Shown here piece by piece: positions 12,137 to 55,558 of a stretch of DNA of 64,000 bases. The notes under the pieces were generated by a model. It ran no database searches. It had not been told where the DNA came from and worked only from the letters and a program-made list of their open reading frames with translations. This stretch comes from Pseudopyrenochaeta lycopersici (taxonomy: Eukaryota > Ascomycota > Dothideomycetes > Pleosporales > Pseudopyrenochaetaceae). The position numbers and the translations under genes were made by a program. The stretch spans positions 930,001-994,000 of the forward strand of contig NHZP01000020.1 in the NCBI GenBank assembly GCA_003313425.1, read 5' to 3'. The number at the start of each line of letters is the position of its first letter. Within the stretch, counting starts at the first letter, position 1.

Positions 12137-12539
12137 TGTTATAAACAGAAGTAGGAAGGGCGGCAGTTATAAGGATAAGGGAGGAGGCACAGACGACTAA
12201 CAAAGAGACTAAGCCTCTAAACTAACTAATAACGCTAGAGTTACGTAATCCTAGAAAACCTACGCTAAAATAGACTTAGTCCTATAAGATAGAGACGAAC
12301 TTAGAGAACCTAGAGGGAGCCTTATAGGAATCCTATAAGATAATTATATATATAGACTTATATAATATAGCCTTTATAGCATATTATAATTAACTTTAAA
12401 TAATCTATAAGTATACTACTATTTATACTTTCTATATTTAGCCTCCCTCTAGTACTGCACGTCTATAGAATACTGTAAAGAGAATTACTAGTTAACACTA
12501 GTTGCTTTATATTGTAACTACTTGATTAGATCTTTAACA
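12137..12539 (-). mobile_element. solo LTR of the Gypsy-6 family (403 bp)
   Basis: TGTTATAAACAGAAG...ATCTTTAACA with a perfect 5 bp duplication ATTTC (12132-12136 and 12540-12544). It splits the pogo-A transposase frame. The reverse complement aligns along its length with 52456-52858, the LTR next to the polypurine tract of Gypsy-6, which identifies the family. The strand given assumes the same orientation rule as in Gypsy-6. Confidence 0.85.
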
Positions 12540-13634
12540 ATTTCTACCTATATACGCAGCTATACGTAATATAGCTAATAAGCTACTATTAATACATAGT
12601 AGAAGTCTAGTTAGAATATATTAGCTATCTAACTTTATTAAGCGTTTAGATAGACTTATAACGCGTTTTACTTAGGTATATAATAAGTAACGAGCTCTAT
12701 ATAAGGATCTAAAGTTAGTTAATAGCTAGTTTAAGGAAGTAGAAGAAATAGAAGTAAAGTATAGTATATTAGATAAGGATATATTTAACTTTAATAAAGC
12801 TAGCTTTATAATAAGTAAGATAATAACTTAGCTAGTTATAACTAGGTTAGAGAGAAAAGAGTAGCTAAAGGCTATCTAGCTAAGTAACTATAAGTAGGTA
12901 ATATTAATTTAAAGTATTAATACTACTAGCTAAGTAATCTTACTCTTCTTAATCTTGACTAGCTAGTATTACTACTATACCTAGTACTAGAAAGAAGCTA
13001 TCTTATATAACTAGGCTATCTTAGTTAGTAATAATAGCTAGATAACTAATTAGCTTAAAGTAGTATAGCTAAAGTAGTTTAATACTTATATAAAGATAAA
13101 AGTAGTAAGCGCGCGTTAGCTACTTATCCTTAATAGCTATAATAGCTATTACTCTCTTAAATTTTAAGAGATTTATAAAAAAAGTAATATCTATACTCTC
13201 TATATACTACCTTACTTATTTTATTTACTATAGCCTCTTAATATTAGCTACTTCTCTCTTCTTAAGAAAGTATATAGCTACTAGATAGAGAGCTTAATTA
13301 AGGTCTATATTAACTATATTACTAAGCTTAAATTTCTACTTACTTTTAAAGTAGCTTTTAATTAAGCTTTTACTTTAGTTAATATACGCTTAGTATTTTA
13401 AGGAGTAGGCTTTATCTCTCTCTAGCTAAACGTTATCTTATTAAGGCTAGATATCTAGCTATATACGCTATTACTAGTAGCTTACTTAGGAGCTTAGTAA
13501 GGAGCTTAGTAAAGAGCTTAGTAAAGATCTTAGCTAAGAGCTTAGCTAAAAGCTTAGTAAGGAGCTCTCTAAGAGCCTTAAATACTAAAGAATATGTATA
13601 AGTTTAAAGCTTAATTAACTCTAATTAGTAATTA

Positions 13635-32879: not shown

Positions 32880-34034
32880 CTTTATTATACACTAGGCTAC
32901 TTAGTGGTCGTGCAGACCGCACTTTAAACAGGCGCCGTTCTCTTTTCTTTCTTAGACCTGTTTACGTGTTCCCTAGAATTCTTTTCTAGGTTTCGCACAG
33001 AGCTAGTGAGCTCCTACAGAAGTTATCCAGTCCATCTTATTATTATCTCTTTAGGTTATTAGTTAGCTCCGCGTGTCGTACGCTTCGCCTATATAGCTCT
33101 TGCTTATAGTAATTCTCTCTACAGCTCTTAAATTTTCCTAGGTTACCCTAGTCTGTCGTACGAACTCTTCGTACGTTTCTCTAAACGGTAGTTAATAACC
33201 TGCTTAGGTCCTTAGCAGCTTACTGTTTAAGCTGCTCTTAAGATAGTTAATCTTCTAAACGTGGCTTACGTTGTCTAACCTAGCTTTAAGGAGCTTAAGG
33301 TTAAACGCTTGGACATAAGGGTTAAATTCCGTTCTTCCTTGCTTAGTCGTACGGAGGTATTTAAGGGCTTTCTCTCTTGCTGTAGGGTCCTTAAAGAAGT
33401 TATTAAGGTAGGACTATAGCTTAAGGAGGGATGGCGTTGCTAGCCTATTCATAAGGTTTGTTACATATAGGCTAAGGGCGTTAAACGCTTAGCCTGTCGT
33501 ACGAGTAATAACGTAATTCACTCTACTGTCATCGTCCGGGTAGGCTGCACGGTCTCCGTACAGCTTTACTTAGACCTTCATTTTCTATTAAAGATATTAC
33601 TCGTGCGAGCCTTTCTTAAAGACTTCTATATTTAGTAGTCTTAGTTTCCTAATCTCTTATACAGGAGAGTCTTACTGTTCTGTTAAAAAGGGGGTAGAGA
33701 CTGTGCGTGCTGTCTGTGCACTGCTTAATTCAGCGACTAAGTTCTTTAGCTCCTGAACTTGGTTCTGCAATAACTCGTACAGCTGGCTCTGCTGTTGACT
33801 AGCTAACTTGTTAAGGCTGTCTTGTAAGGAGTTAACTATTGCTAATAGATCTTCTGCTGAGGGTTGGTTATTGCGTAGTTGTCGGGGGTCGTGCTGATGC
33901 AACTGGTGTTGCTGAGGTGCGTGCTGGTGCAGCTGGTGTTGCTGCTGTCCTAAGGCTCCTGTCATCTGCATCTGGTGCTCTTATTGTTGTAGCTCGTACG
34001 CTTGTTAGTTTAAGGGCCCTTAGTGTCCGTCCAT
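32880..34034 (-). pseudogene. Gypsy-2 gag
   Basis: Probable start ATG at 34034, then a Gln/His-rich N-terminus (MQMTGALGQQQHQLHQH within it) broken by TAA/TAG at likely Gln codons, then a helical Gln/Leu-rich segment around 33800. It ends in a zinc knuckle at 32930-32889 with spacing C-x2-C-x4-H-x4-C, carrying two TAG stops. Gag packages the element RNA. The longest open part is 33971-33672. Protease follows at about 32640-32350 with a YDIIL motif and a decayed active-site region. Confidence 0.75.
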
Positions 34035-35688
34035 TATTTTTTAGGTTGTTAATCTTTCTCCTTATGTTATGGGCGAAGAGGCCTAACTAACGAGTGTGCA
34101 TTTATCCTATACTACAGAAGGAGAAAGATAGAGAAGAGGTTACAGGTATCCTTAGAGGATATATATATATGTTCGCACGAGTAAAGAGGAACGTGCTCCT
34201 CTAGCTGCTAACTTGTACGAGCTAATAAGAAAAGGGGGCAGAGGAGATTAAGGAGTTCTTTCCCCGTGCGATAGTAGCGAAGCCTCTCCTGCTTAAAGGG
34301 CGCAGCCTATTACACTTACCTATAATTCTATATATCTTAGTAATTTAATATACGTCCTAGGTAATATTAACGCCCTTATAGGAGTTATAAAATAGTAAGA
34401 GGCCTAGTAGAAGCTTACAGTTAGTGCCCTTATAGTTAGCGAAGTAAGTAACTACTCTATTAACTGCGTGCAAGTTTAGTGACGTCTATAAGTTAAATGC
34501 GAGGTAGATTATACTTAGAGCTTACTATAAAAGCTGTATTATCTTACGCTAATAATATTTTAGATCTTTAAGCACTCGCTGGGTAATTATACGCCTGTTA
34601 TTTATAGCCCTTAGGGTTTAAACTAGTAGTTATAACGTAGCTAGAAATTTAAGGAATTTAGGGTTATTAACACGCTAAAATAGAACTCTACGCCTTACTA
34701 CTTACCTCCTTAGAGCTTAGTTAACTCTCTTAAAGTTAGTATTTTAGACTAGTTAAGTAATAATACGTTAGTAATTACTTTAAGATAGGTTAAGGCTACA
34801 TAAACAAAACTAGTTAGTAAGCTTAACGTCCTCTAGGCTCTTATCTTCTATAAGCTTTAGGTAGTGCTAAGCTATGTACTTACGCACGCTTTAGACACCT
34901 CTTATTATGTTATAGGTAATCTCCTTCTAGTTTAGGTAACACGGCTTATATAACTAGAATCTTACCTTAGTTATTTAATCTTTCTGCTCTATAGGAACCC
35001 TATATTTCTACACCTACTAAGTAACTTTAATATTACTAAGAAGTGTTATAAAGCTTAAGATACGCTCCTAATTAACCTAACTGTAGTTAAACTTTAGAGC
35101 AGTAGCTAGCTTATTAGGCTAACTTTCTAGTAGCTAGATTAAGTTATTATTAGTACGCTGTAACTTAGTACGTATAGAGGGATCTACGATAACTTCTAAA
35201 AGCTTATTATTATTAGTATTATTAAGATTAAACCTTTGCTAGACAGGAGACTCCTTATCCTAGATAATAAGCTATAATAATTGTGTACTACGACGTTATT
35301 GCGGTCTAGTATCGTTAAGATAAGTAGCTAATCAGTTTTAATAATTCTTAAAGCTTATGCTGGCAGTTAATAAAGGAGTAATAAGAGAAATAGAATAAAT
35401 TTACAGTAAAACTGTATTAACGCGTTTATAATCTTATCTATTAACTTCTCTGCTTCCCCGCTTCGCGACGCGTCTGTAAACAAGAACAACAACAAAGCTA
35501 ACGATAGTCGAACGACGATCGTTCGCCGAACGATCGATCATCGTTTACTGATCGTTTACACGAACGATGTCTAGGTCTGTTCCGTTGTATTGCTCACTGC
35601 TTGGAAGCAGCTCTTGCAATCGTTCCGTTGTAGAGCACTGGGGGACGGCCACATTAGCTACTCATAGGTAAAGCGATTGAATACAAAA

Positions 35689-44588: not shown

Positions 44589-45219
44589 TGTAATAGGCTG
44601 CGCCCTTTAAGTAGGAGAGGCTTCGCTACTATCGCACAGGGAAGGAACTCCTTAATCTCCTCTGCCCCCTTTTCTTATTAGCTCGTATAAGTTAGTAGCT
44701 AGAGGAGCATATTCCTTTTTACTTATACGAATATATATATATATCTGTTACGATCCTAGGAATGAGGGGACGCGCAGCTTAAAAAGGGCTCACTCGTGGC
44801 CTGGGGCTATGACGCATGTGCTAGCCCAATAGGAACTAGTGTCCCAGGAAGCTTAGCGACGGCCCCCATGGGATTCTCTAGGACACCACGTGTATCCCAC
44901 AGATCCTATAGAATCCCAGGGAAACCTACGATAGGATTTATAGGATCCTATAGGACAACCTGTATATAGATTACTATAATAGGCCCCTATAGCTTAGTGT
45001 GTTTAATTTAATATTATACTCTACAGTATAGTAATAGCAATACTAATTATTCTTAACCCTTAGTACTCTTTATAGAAGCGCCCTCTTACTGTCTTAGTAT
45101 TAAACTCCCCCCCTTCCATCTAGTCCCTCACTCTATCCCAGAGAACTAACCTTGCAATCTCATTAGCTATCCTCACTAATAGCTTTTAAGATTCTTTACA
45201 CTTTGAACACCCTTAAGAT

Positions 45220-50400: not shown

Positions 50401-50740
50401 CACGTTAAGGTTAGACTATTTTTAGTTAAAGAACAAAACAGACTTGTAAATTATACACTTAAGCTACTACTAGATATAAAGATCCACCCCTGCTTCTATA
50501 TCTCTAAGTTAGAACTAGCCGACCCTGCTACACTATTATAGAAAATATTCCGTTATAAATTAGAAGAAGAAAATAAGTTTAAAGTTAAGAAAATCTAGGG
50601 ATACTAATAAAATAGAAGAGTTAACAACCTAGAACTAAGCTTCAGCTACCTAGTTAAATAGAAAGGGTACCTAAGCGTAGAGAGTACGTAGGAACTACCA
50701 GAAAATCTAAGAAACTGCTAAGAAAAAATTAGAGAATATT
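47450..50740 (+). pseudogene. Gypsy-1 pol: protease, RT, RNase H, integrase, chromodomain
   Basis: Protease active site reads ALVDSRA near 47480 (usually DSGA). RT spans about 48090-48770; the open segment 48508-48753 contains YFNN (48544-48555) where the family has Y-x-DD, so both catalytic Asp are Asn. RNase H about 48960-49340 (HNKELIVVV, ADTLSRRLD). Integrase about 49480-50300, with the zinc region (CYKNKYSTYVPYREMQ) and a DDE core. The C-terminal chromodomain at about 50640-50730 (YLVK, KGYLSVEST) places it among chromoviruses. Heavy RIP; no frame intact. Confidence 0.9.
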
Positions 50741-50852
50741 AGGAAAGGAAGGAAAGAAAGAAAAAGAAATAACAAACCTAAGAGGAGGGAACAATAGCAC
50801 TGCTACTACTCCCAAAGTTAGCTACCCTAGGAAGCAGATTACTATCCTCTAG

Positions 50853-51281
50853 TTATATTAGTATAAACACGCTCTAGTCTAGAGCTAGAGTGCCCAGCAT
50901 AAGACCTTCCTTAAGATTGGCAATCTCCTGCCCTAGTGCTTCCGCCGCCTTAAGGGCCTTAATTTCCTCTACGTACTGACCTAAAACGTCTACTAGACTT
51001 TGCTTACGTTTCTAAAGAAACTCCTTTTATTTACGCAAACGACTACGTTTAGAACGAGCGGCTAGCAACGCGCTCAGCGCCTTCTCCTCTGCTGCCTCAG
51101 CCTCTGCCTCTTGAGCCTCTAGACAATATATCTCCTTATCTAGCTTAGAATAGTTTAGCAATAAGATGTTAACTAGTTCATAAAGCTTATTACTATTACG
51201 ATAGCAATTACTACACTCTTTCTTTAACGATAATATCTAGCACTCCTAGCCCTGCTTTACGCAATAACCGCAGGCAACTAT
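50853..51281 (-). pseudogene. antisense Zn2Cys6-like ORF of Gypsy-1
   Basis: It reads antisense to gag-pol in the segment between pol and the 3 prime LTR, about 140 codons with only a few stops (TAG/TAA at likely Trp, Arg or Gln codons). Near the N-terminus (51272-51180) is C-x2-C-x6-C-x8-C-x2-C-x7-Y, which matches the Zn(II)2Cys6 fungal cluster if the last Tyr was Cys. Then comes a Glu/Ala/Leu-rich, coiled-coil-like region (KLDKEI, EAEAEAAEEKALSALL) and a conserved tail (TLALD, SVF). The start is probably an ATG changed to ATA. The Gypsy-6 ORF is homologous along its length. A DNA-binding role is inferred from the Cys spacing only. Confidence 0.7.
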
Positions 51282-52976
51282 AGCTAACTAGCTAACGCGA
51301 TTTATTTAATCTCTAAGATTATAACGTTGTAGAGTACTCTTAGAACTTATTAGTTAGTATATGGGGACATAAATAGTAGGGAGGAGGATGGTGTTACGAT
51401 CCTAGGAATGAGAGGACGCGCAGCTTAAAAAGGGCTTACTCGTGGCCTAGGGCTATGACGCATGTGCTAGCCCAATAGGAACTAGTGTCCCAGGAAGCTT
51501 GGCGACGGCCCCTATAGGATTCTCTGGGACACTACGTGTATCCCACAGATCCTATGGAATCCTAGGGAAACCTACGATAGGATTTATGGGATCCTATAGG
51601 ACAACCTGTATATAGATTACTATAATAGGCCCCTATGGCTTAGTGTGTTTAATTTAATATTATACTCTATAGTATAGTAATAGCAATACTGATTGTTCTT
51701 AACCCTTAGTACTCTTTACAGAAGCGCCCTCTTACTGTCTTAGTATTAAACTCCCCCCCTTCCATCTAGTCCCTCACTCTATCCCGGAGAACTAACCTTG
51801 CAATCTCATTGGCTATCCTCACCGATAGCTTTTAAGATTCTTCACAATATCCTCTAAGGATACCTATAACCTCTTCTCTATCTTTCTCCTTCTATAGTAT
51901 AAGATAAATACACACTTATTAGCTAAGCCTCTTCGCCTATATTATAAGGAGAAAGATTAATAACCTAAAAATAATAGACAGATACTAAGGGCCTTTAATC
52001 TAATAAGTATATAAGCTATAATAATAAGAGTACTAGATATAGATAACAGGAGCCTTAGGACAGCAGCAATACTAGCTGCACTAGCACGTACCTTAGCAAC
52101 ACTAGTTACATTAGCACGACCTCTAATAACTACGTAATAACTAACCCTTAGTAAAAGATCTATTAGTAATAGTTAGCTCCTTATAAGACAGCCTTAACAA
52201 GTTAGCTAGTTAATAGTAGAGCTAGCTATATAAGTTATTACAGAACTAAGTTTAGGAGCTAAAGAACTTAGTTACTAAATTAAGCAGTATATAGATAGCA
52301 CGTACAGTCTCTACCCCCTTTTTAATAGAATAGTAAGACTCTCTTATATAAGAGATTAGGAAACTAAGACTACTAAATATAGAAGTCTTTAAGAAAGGCT
52401 TATATAAGTAATATCTTTAATAGAAAATAAAGGTCTAAGTATAGCTGTATAGAGATAGTAAAGATCTAATTAAGTAGTTACAATATAAAGCAACTAGTGT
52501 TAACTAGTTAGGCTCTTTAGAGTATTCTGTAGATATGCAGTACTAGGTTAATTAAATATAGAAGTATTAGATAGTAGTATATTTATAGATTATCTTAAAG
52601 TTAATTATAATATACTATAGAGGCTATATTATATAAGTCTATATATATAATTATCTTATAGGATTCCTAAAAGGCCTCCTCTAAGTTTTCTAAGTTTATC
52701 TCTATCCTATAGGATATAGTCTACTTTAGCGTAGGTTTTCTAGAATTACGTAACTCTAGCGTTATTAGTTAGTTTAGAGGCTTAGCTTCTTTATTAGTTA
52801 TTTATACCTCCTCTTATATCCTTATAACTACTGCCCTTCCTACTTCTATTAATAATACTATCCTCCCTCTCTAGTCCTTATATCTTTATAACTAACGTAT
52901 AGCTTCTTATAGTACTACCTAATATTATTCTATTAGAGATTATATAAATACTATTAGTTAAGTTACTATAGTTTCC

Positions 52977-53396
52977 TATAAATATTATTTAAAGAAGAAG
53001 TTAGAGTATAGGATATTTTTATTAGAAGAGAAGTATAGAAATTATTATTATAATAGAGTATTATTATATAAGCTAGTAGACGTACTAGTTCTAAACTTTT
53101 CTTATTTAGATAAAGAATTAGCTTAGTTAGACGCGTAAGAAGCTAAGGCTAATAACGTAGAAGAGAAGGCGCTAAATACCCTCCTTACTACTTACGTAAA
53201 CAAGAATTAACTTTATAAATAGTAAAAGTTATTATAATATTATAACTAATAATAGGTAGATAATTCTAGTTATATTATAGAAGAAATTAAAGTATTAGAG
53301 GTAATTAAGGATGTTAACTATAAGGTTAATATTCTTAAGTAAAGGCTAATACTTATTACTTCTACCTTAGACTAGAGTATCTTTACTCTATCTTAG
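52977..53396 (+). pseudogene. antisense Zn2Cys6-like ORF of Gypsy-6, all six Cys positions now Tyr
   Basis: Antisense to the element pol and next to its 3 prime LTR. From 52977 to 53069 the frame has Tyr at spacing Y-x2-Y-x6-Y-x8-Y-x2-Y-x7-Y, exactly the spacing of the Cys cluster in the Gypsy-1 ORF, and every one is TAT, the RIP product of TGT or TGC read on the other strand. The homology then continues through LYKLVDVLVLNFSYLDKEL, NNVEEKALNTLL, EEIKVLEV and the C-terminal TLD, SIF. Several TAG/TAA codons interrupt it. Inactive, but strong evidence that the ORF family is real. Confidence 0.7.
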
Positions 53397-55310: not shown

Positions 55311-55558
55311 TGTTATAGGCGAAGAGGCTTAGCTAACGAGTGTGCATTTGTCCTACACTACAAAAGGAGAAAGATAAAGAAGAGGTTATAGGTATCCTTA
55401 GAGGATATATATATATTCGTACAAGTAAAGAGGAACGTGCTCCTCTAGCTACTAACTTATACAAGCTTATAAGAAAAGGGGGCAGAGGAGATTAAGGAGT
55501 TTGTTCCCCGAGCGATAGTAGCGAAGCCTCCCTTCCTTAAAGGGCGCAGCCTATTACA
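55311..55558 (-). mobile_element. solo LTR of the Gypsy-2 family (248 bp)
   Basis: TGTTATAGGCGAAGAGG...CCTATTACA, clearly the same LTR as 27589-27838, with more transitions. The flanks (TATAT and ATTAG) do not match, so the original duplication is lost or the ends belong to different events. Confidence 0.85.

Follow-up and report, generated by a model that had tools for sequence, protein, structure and literature searches.

Two antisense frames in a nest of repeats

The 64,000-nt stretch of the Pseudopyrenochaeta lycopersici genome analysed here (contig NHZP01000020.1, positions 930,001 to 994,000; hereafter the window) is a nest of repeats damaged by repeat-induced point mutation (RIP), within a genome of 62.7 Mb. 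Two of its retrotransposons, Gypsy-1 and Gypsy-6, carry a related reading frame that runs antisense to pol beside the 3' long terminal repeat (LTR), and that almost certainly represents a real protein-coding gene. The initial annotation, made from the letters of the window alone, had placed these frames at 50853-51281 on the minus strand for Gypsy-1 and at 52977-53396 on the plus strand for Gypsy-6, and had proposed a conserved antisense gene for a zinc-cluster, coiled-coil protein. Both frames do lie there, and the proposal is supported by the analyses reported below. The features concerned are the following:

44746-45200, plus strand: 5' LTR of Gypsy-1 (455 nt, 95% identical to 51392-51846)
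50641-50739, plus strand: chromodomain at the C-terminal end of Gypsy-1 pol (from the translation; the frame has RIP-type stops)
50778-51350, minus strand: whole frame of the Gypsy-1 antisense gene (190 codons plus stop; approximate limits, taken from the open copy L013)
51180-51272, minus strand: six-Cys region of Gypsy-1, C-x2-C-x6-C-x8-C-x2-C-x7-(Y)
51378-51391, plus strand: purine-rich tract adjoining the 3' LTR, putatively a polypurine tract (from the sequence and the LTR limit)
51392-51846, plus strand: 3' LTR of Gypsy-1 (455 nt, paired with the 5' LTR), with a putative antisense promoter
52436-52855, minus strand: probable 3' LTR of a truncated Gypsy-6 (86% identical to 12139-12568; end placed by the shared LTR/tract junction)
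52899-53396, plus strand: antisense frame of Gypsy-6 (approximate start, by comparison with copy L062; C-terminal end uncertain)
52977-53069, plus strand: six-Cys region of Gypsy-6 (six TAT codons here, Cys codons at these places in less mutated copies)

With both LTRs in place, Gypsy-1 counts as a full element. Its integrase and chromodomain assignments rest on the sister copy L013, pieces of which (with X at stops) matched the Pfam models Integrase_H2C2 and Chromo at E 2.7e-10 and 8.1e-9, the Chromo match being to the same piece as 50641-50739. The antisense frames had been listed as ORFs; they are present in the window but interrupted, by 5 stops in 140 codons in Gypsy-1 (codons 24-163) and by 11 stops in 139 codons in Gypsy-6 (codons 24-162). 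The stretch 50853-51281 is in fact the central part of a longer Gypsy-1 frame, which has ATA where the start codon should be, at 42 nt from the 3' LTR and just beyond the purine tract. The two frames are homologous, as had been suspected, aligning ungapped over 139 codons with 40% identity (E 2.3e-18 in a search of the genome). Both contain the shared words LY-x-LV, LDKE, EEKAL and EEIK; the tail, also listed as common, differs slightly between them, reading GTLALD in Gypsy-1 and STSTLD in Gypsy-6.

A search of the genome with the frame from the window, in which X replaced the stops, gave 150 matches (150 of 154 candidates were scored), a number that includes several pieces of single copies. 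By sequence comparison, the antisense frame is homologous in at least three families, namely Gypsy-1, Gypsy-6 and a group designated Y, which carries an insertion of about 7 codons and, in this genome, the cysteine spacing 2-6-8-2-8. The frame is about 190 codons long and is found after the chromodomain-bearing end of pol and before the 3' LTR; in Gypsy-6 and Y, an opposite-strand motif resembling a chromodomain and, upstream, an LTR junction of similar kind were recognised by reading. Less mutated relatives had been expected to be open in the antisense direction, and the Gypsy-1 copy L013 is such a relative: its frame (L013 1479-2051) begins with ATG and encodes 190 aa with six Cys, and it is the only stop-free match across three protein searches of the genome (150, 110 and 140 matches). 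Despite this open frame, the pol part of L013 has 12 stops in 429 codons. The RIP index TpA/ApT of the antisense part is 1.26 in L013 and 1.88-2.95 in the other 22 Gypsy-1 copies, and the antisense part of L013 also seems less RIP-marked than its own pol.

The copies compared below number 66 (23 Gypsy-1, 35 Gypsy-6 and 8 Y) and are a subset of the genome matches. Rows were dropped for split or partial frames in Gypsy-1 (L018, L025, L026), for indels or partial matches in Gypsy-6 (L034, L043, L052, L056, L057, L080), for repeat or partial matches to Gypsy-6-type copies (L027-L030) and, in Y, for a match one codon out of register (L078); ten further Gypsy-6 places and most of the places matched in the genome search lie outside the set.

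Outside this genome, three protein searches gave 21, 107 and 106 overlapping matches that amount to 175 distinct proteins, which bear out the expectation of open relatives as well. Most of these carry no species name, and the named ones come from nine species, all Pleosporales according to a taxonomy look-up: Periconia digitata, Exserohilum turcicum, Pyrenophora tritici-repentis, P. teres, Curvularia clavata, Clathrospora elynae, Didymella pomorum, Setomelanomma holmii and Ophiobolus disseminans. The Periconia digitata protein, P0012, is encoded by an open frame. Full-length members begin like M-V-S-R-S-T-A-x-R-H, 26 residues ahead of the first Cys. In P0003, P0008 and P0023 the frame does not end at the usual start but continues upstream through a stretch reading RNTI, which in this genome corresponds to the LTR end plus the purine tract, a hint from sequence that the outside genes might adjoin an LTR too. 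Eight of the proteins (P0018, P0037, P0045, P0046, P0060, P0120, P0135 and P0138) bear metagenome labels such as RnfC, CheZ, SbcCD, TolA-binding protein or chromosome segregation ATPase; these are probably coiled-coil mislabels of a fungal retrotransposon protein, and should serve as a warning about metagenome annotation. In a virus collection, 47 pattern matches were obtained and none was confirmed as a relative.

Conservation of the antisense protein and its cysteines

RIP produces transitions only, and for this reason selection was assessed on transversions. Between Gypsy-1 and Gypsy-6 these fall at codon positions 1/2/3 in the numbers 17/12/41 (p 1.3e-5), or 15/11/33 when only strictly fixed differences are counted, and the corresponding figures are 38/23/53 for Gypsy-1 against Y and 37/23/49 for Gypsy-6 against Y. 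In the cysteine part alone (codons 1-36) the codon-position bias was not significant (5/3/6). Because one sense frame has the same third positions as the antisense frame, we also ran a shuffle test in which differences were permuted within codon position and base (2000 shuffles for each of five pairs, four of them with L013). For the antisense protein the scores were 315-380, where the null means were 213-241; they lie 4.9 to 7 standard deviations over the shuffle mean, and in every pair 0 of the 2000 shuffles attained them. For the matching sense frame, 47, 521, 142, 465 and 667 of 2000 shuffles attained the score, its similarity lying within 1.5 standard deviations of the shuffle mean in four pairs and at 2.0 in the fifth. 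Judged by transversions and shuffles together, the antisense protein is under purifying selection, which the initial annotation had named as a check, and it is this protein, not the sense frame, that is conserved.

These results bear on two readings in which the protein would not be what matters. The frame could be the shadow of a sense coding region such as a C-terminal extension of pol, given that in Gypsy-1 and Y the pol frame is the very sense frame that shares the antisense third positions, and that in most of seven copies examined the sense frame with these third positions has the fewest sense stops. The pol of Gypsy-6, however, uses another sense frame, the sense frame of L013 has 4 stops where the antisense frame has 0, and the shuffle test sets only the antisense similarity well apart from its null; on this comparison of frames and on the shuffles a shadow of pol was rejected, and we regard the probability left to it as very small. 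Very improbable, too, is a functional antisense RNA, acting as double-stranded RNA or by interference with the sense transcript, in which the frame would be incidental. Antisense transcripts of plant elements are discussed in such terms in the accessible text of PMC7264820, but amino acid conservation far over the shuffles, the third-position bias of the transversions and a Cys spacing that is constant across 66 proteins all speak against it here.

The cysteines themselves were counted in all 176 aligned proteins, whereas the alignment called A4 holds 60 of 108 proteins, chiefly the longer ones, with close duplicates removed. In 77 of the 176 there is a residue at all six Cys columns; 66 of these have six Cys, and the other 11 carry one to three Tyr with nothing else changed. 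One additional protein, outside the 77, has Gly in the sixth column. Of the 66, 64 are spaced 2-6-8-2-7, one 2-6-8-2-8 and one 2-9-8-2-8, the last of which falls outside the signature C-x2-C-x6-C-x(5-12)-C-x2-C-x(6-8)-C that the others follow. The positions proposed for the window are thus kept across element families: the marked residues of Gypsy-1 read C,C,C,C,C,Y and those of Gypsy-6 read Y six times, all TAT, both spaced 2-6-8-2-7, just as first described. Neither outcome named beforehand as refuting the proposal, closed antisense frames in less damaged relatives or Cys positions that differ between families, was obtained. Among the genome copies, Cys is found at the six columns in 22, 11, 18, 15, 5 and 4 of the 23 Gypsy-1 copies, in 7, 2, 10, 11, 2 and 9 of the 35 Gypsy-6 copies, and in 8, 7, 4, 7, 7 and 7 of the 8 Y copies.

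In the 66 copies these columns hold TGY or TAY codons, one TAA and not a single Arg, whereas Arg occurs as well in every other column where any copy has Cys. We therefore read the latter as Arg codons decaying via Cys, and the six columns as true cysteines, so that the six TAT codons of the window Gypsy-6 are best read as Cys codons decayed by RIP, in agreement with what had been suggested for them. The stops in the same copies are TAA or TAG in 529 of 531 cases, as expected from RIP. Tyr-rich readings of RIP-damaged elements can conceal cysteine domains. A chance likeness of two RIP-damaged stretches was considered and rejected on the homology search, the outside homologs, the Cys columns and the Cys spacing.

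A predicted zinc cluster and coiled coil

AlphaFold models of two subfamilies, whose alignments share one protein (P0078), reached a mean predicted local distance difference test (pLDDT) score of 76.6 and 82.4. Both models show a short helix behind each CxxC, followed by a long helix of 82-86 residues (68-149 or 68-153). Against the PDB, Foldseek matched them to Zn2Cys6 domains in 12 of 13 and 5 of 5 cases (17 of 18 matches, none below E 0.1), these being the DNA-binding domains of Put3, Pho7, Cyp1/Hap1, Gal4, 1cld, Leu3 and Ppr1, with Pho7 and Leu3 in both lists; the VIA-align lists re-examine Foldseek's own matches and are not independent of them. Where the long helix matched KAP1 and a nuclear pore protein, this was treated as generic.

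The Pfam Zn_clus model (PF00172), which had been suggested as a check, aligns at the right place but stays under the cut-off of 21, with 11.8 bits for the open copy (P0001) and 14.3 bits for P0115; at E<=1 it is found in 20 of 33 members (best 6.4e-4) and, in a second set, in 9 of 30 (best 0.043). Since the gathering score is missed, we name the protein Zn2Cys6-like and do not place it in Zn_clus. A sequence search of the PDB returned Cyp1/Hap1 at the right place, with E 2.3, 4 and 9.3, ranked below coiled-coil and other matches, and the same search with a single member gave coiled-coil-type matches only. NCBIfam gave weak coiled-coil-type matches only for P0001 and P0115 and none for P0030. 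The Pfam families obtained for P0001 (3 at E<=10) and for P0115 (7 at E<=1) did not include a bZIP model. On the models and the spacing, a predicted Gal4-like Zn2Cys6 head is very probable.

The likeness to Gal4-type factors (Gal4, Put3, Leu3, Hap1, Ppr1, Pho7) lies in the same six-Cys signature spacing, in the order of head, linker and coiled coil, and in the weak fold matches. There are differences as well. Gal4-type factors usually carry a large effector domain, for which a protein of about 185 residues has no space; they also have a proline in the loop between the third and fourth Cys, absent in the members seen here; and, unlike them, the present proteins are encoded antisense within an LTR retrotransposon.

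Possible role and related systems

We favour, with a probability of about 0.55, the reading that the product of the antisense gene binds DNA as a dimer and regulates the LTRs of its own element. A predicted head, a short linker and a long helix with basic patches would most likely make a dimeric DNA-binding factor, and given the position of the start codon, any antisense transcript would have to begin within the LTR or very close to it. It would be driven by an antisense promoter lying in the 3' LTR or in the adjoining 41 nt; the protein would then enter the nucleus, its coiled coil would pair two chains, and the zinc clusters would bind the LTR DNA of its own and of sister copies, shifting sense transcription up or down, as HBZ of human T-cell leukemia virus type 1 (HTLV-1) does from the same position. 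Taken separately, binding to DNA is probable, and the chances that the element's own LTR is the main target are evenly balanced, own LTRs being the nearest targets on which selection on the element could act. With somewhat more reserve, we suggest that chromodomain Gypsy elements of Pleosporales may have captured or evolved a Zn2Cys6 factor of their own, an HBZ-like antisense switch reading LTRs genome-wide. If that were true, solo LTRs and neighbouring host genes could be wired into one network.

As to sites for such a factor, the window contains 13 occurrences of TCCTATAGGA with at most one mismatch, where 4.7 would be expected. On the LTR side, CCTATAGG was found 27 times in 23 Gypsy-1 segments, 15 times in 35 Gypsy-6 segments and 0 times in 6 Y segments, with 0 in similar lengths of pol, and CGG/CCG is richer there than in pol in all three families; in the Gypsy-1 copies measured the AT content of pol is higher, and LTR side and pol are thus not fairly compared. 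Dyads of the TCCTATAGGA type are possibly binding sites, candidates on sequence grounds that are not kept in all families, as they are absent in the Y segments. Repeated dyads of this type lie in Gypsy-1 and Gypsy-6 LTRs at 44904-44955, 51510-51601 and 52654-52714. The Gypsy-1 3' LTR also contains a perfect 11-nt inverted repeat (51483-51493 and 51524-51534, 30 nt apart), with no such repeat listed for the 5' LTR copy or L013.

Two other roles for a genuine protein have to be weighed. Binding chromatin or DNA, it might guide or tether the complex of cDNA and integrase, together with the chromodomain of pol, to heterochromatin or to nested sites; that pol of the same element has a chromodomain, that the window is itself a nest of repeats and that a long predicted coiled coil suits protein-protein tethering would all agree with this. 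We nevertheless hold such a role to be unlikely, as pol already owns a targeting domain, and a conserved site on the opposite strand beside the 3' LTR fits separate expression. We are similarly doubtful of a factor that would counteract silencing in trans (heterochromatin, RNA interference or RIP-linked silencing) or regulate host promoters. The genome is heavily marked by RIP-type mutation and zinc-cluster proteins are a main class of fungal transcription factors, but no host site or partner was seen, and among the 150, 110 and 140 genome matches the single stop-free one is a Gypsy-1 copy, with no host-gene version in sight.

The proposed regulation of the LTRs by an antisense product has a parallel in HBZ. 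HBZ is a bZIP protein, whereas a zinc-cluster head is predicted here, and the proposed likeness is one of function only; expression and role are shown for HBZ. It is described as a nuclear, regulatory, antisense product of a retroelement, with its antisense promoter in the 3' LTR (PMC11963269, PMC7264820, in the sections available). Plant elements provide a positional match in the aORF-3R genes of maize Grande (gene23), rice RIRE2, Silene Retand (TRP28, PF04195) and bean PvRetro13, which are antisense, lie between pol and the 3' LTR and are kept across copies; the Grande protein is nuclear and TRP28 is predicted to bind DNA, their roles being unknown (PMC7264820, PMC11963269, in the same sections). 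Gypsy-1 has its frame at this very position, and conservation across copies and species is likewise seen (150 genome matches, 175 outside proteins). The plant proteins have other domains, however (TRP28, SMC), with no six-Cys cluster mentioned in the text available, and Retand belongs to a non-chromovirus lineage, whereas the present Gypsy elements have a chromodomain. In fungi, brtn of Boty-like elements of Botrytis cinerea (Zhao et al. 2011, Virology 417:248) is also an extra antisense gene in a chromodomain-bearing Gypsy element; the available description, on which and not on sequence we base the comparison, mentions no zinc cluster, and no Botrytis name occurs among the homolog names, most of the 175 homologs bearing none.

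Antisense genes at this place are therefore already known (Boty brtn, Grande, Retand). What appears to be new is a family of zinc-cluster coiled-coil proteins that occurs in nine named species of Pleosporales and in at least three families of elements; among the papers listed by the literature searches none on a zinc-cluster antisense gene of a fungal retrotransposon was found, a weak absence since subscription journals were mostly outside it. In plants, retroviruses and Botrytis, antisense genes have been described at the 3' ends of LTR elements, and their proteins, as far as the available texts go, mostly offer little functional clue. A recognisable predicted head with well known DNA-binding chemistry makes the question of function testable on a small protein.

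As for the surroundings of the second frame, the window Gypsy-6 looks like a truncated element, and its 5' LTR was not found at its right end in the window. A 95-nt inverted repeat (51847-51941 and 55314-55408, 90.5%) bounds the block that holds it, and the left flank of this block, 51847-52455, is an inverted copy of 33553-34162 (87%). From this arrangement, an element of the terminal-inverted-repeat type seems to surround the Gypsy-6 fragment or to lie directly beside it.
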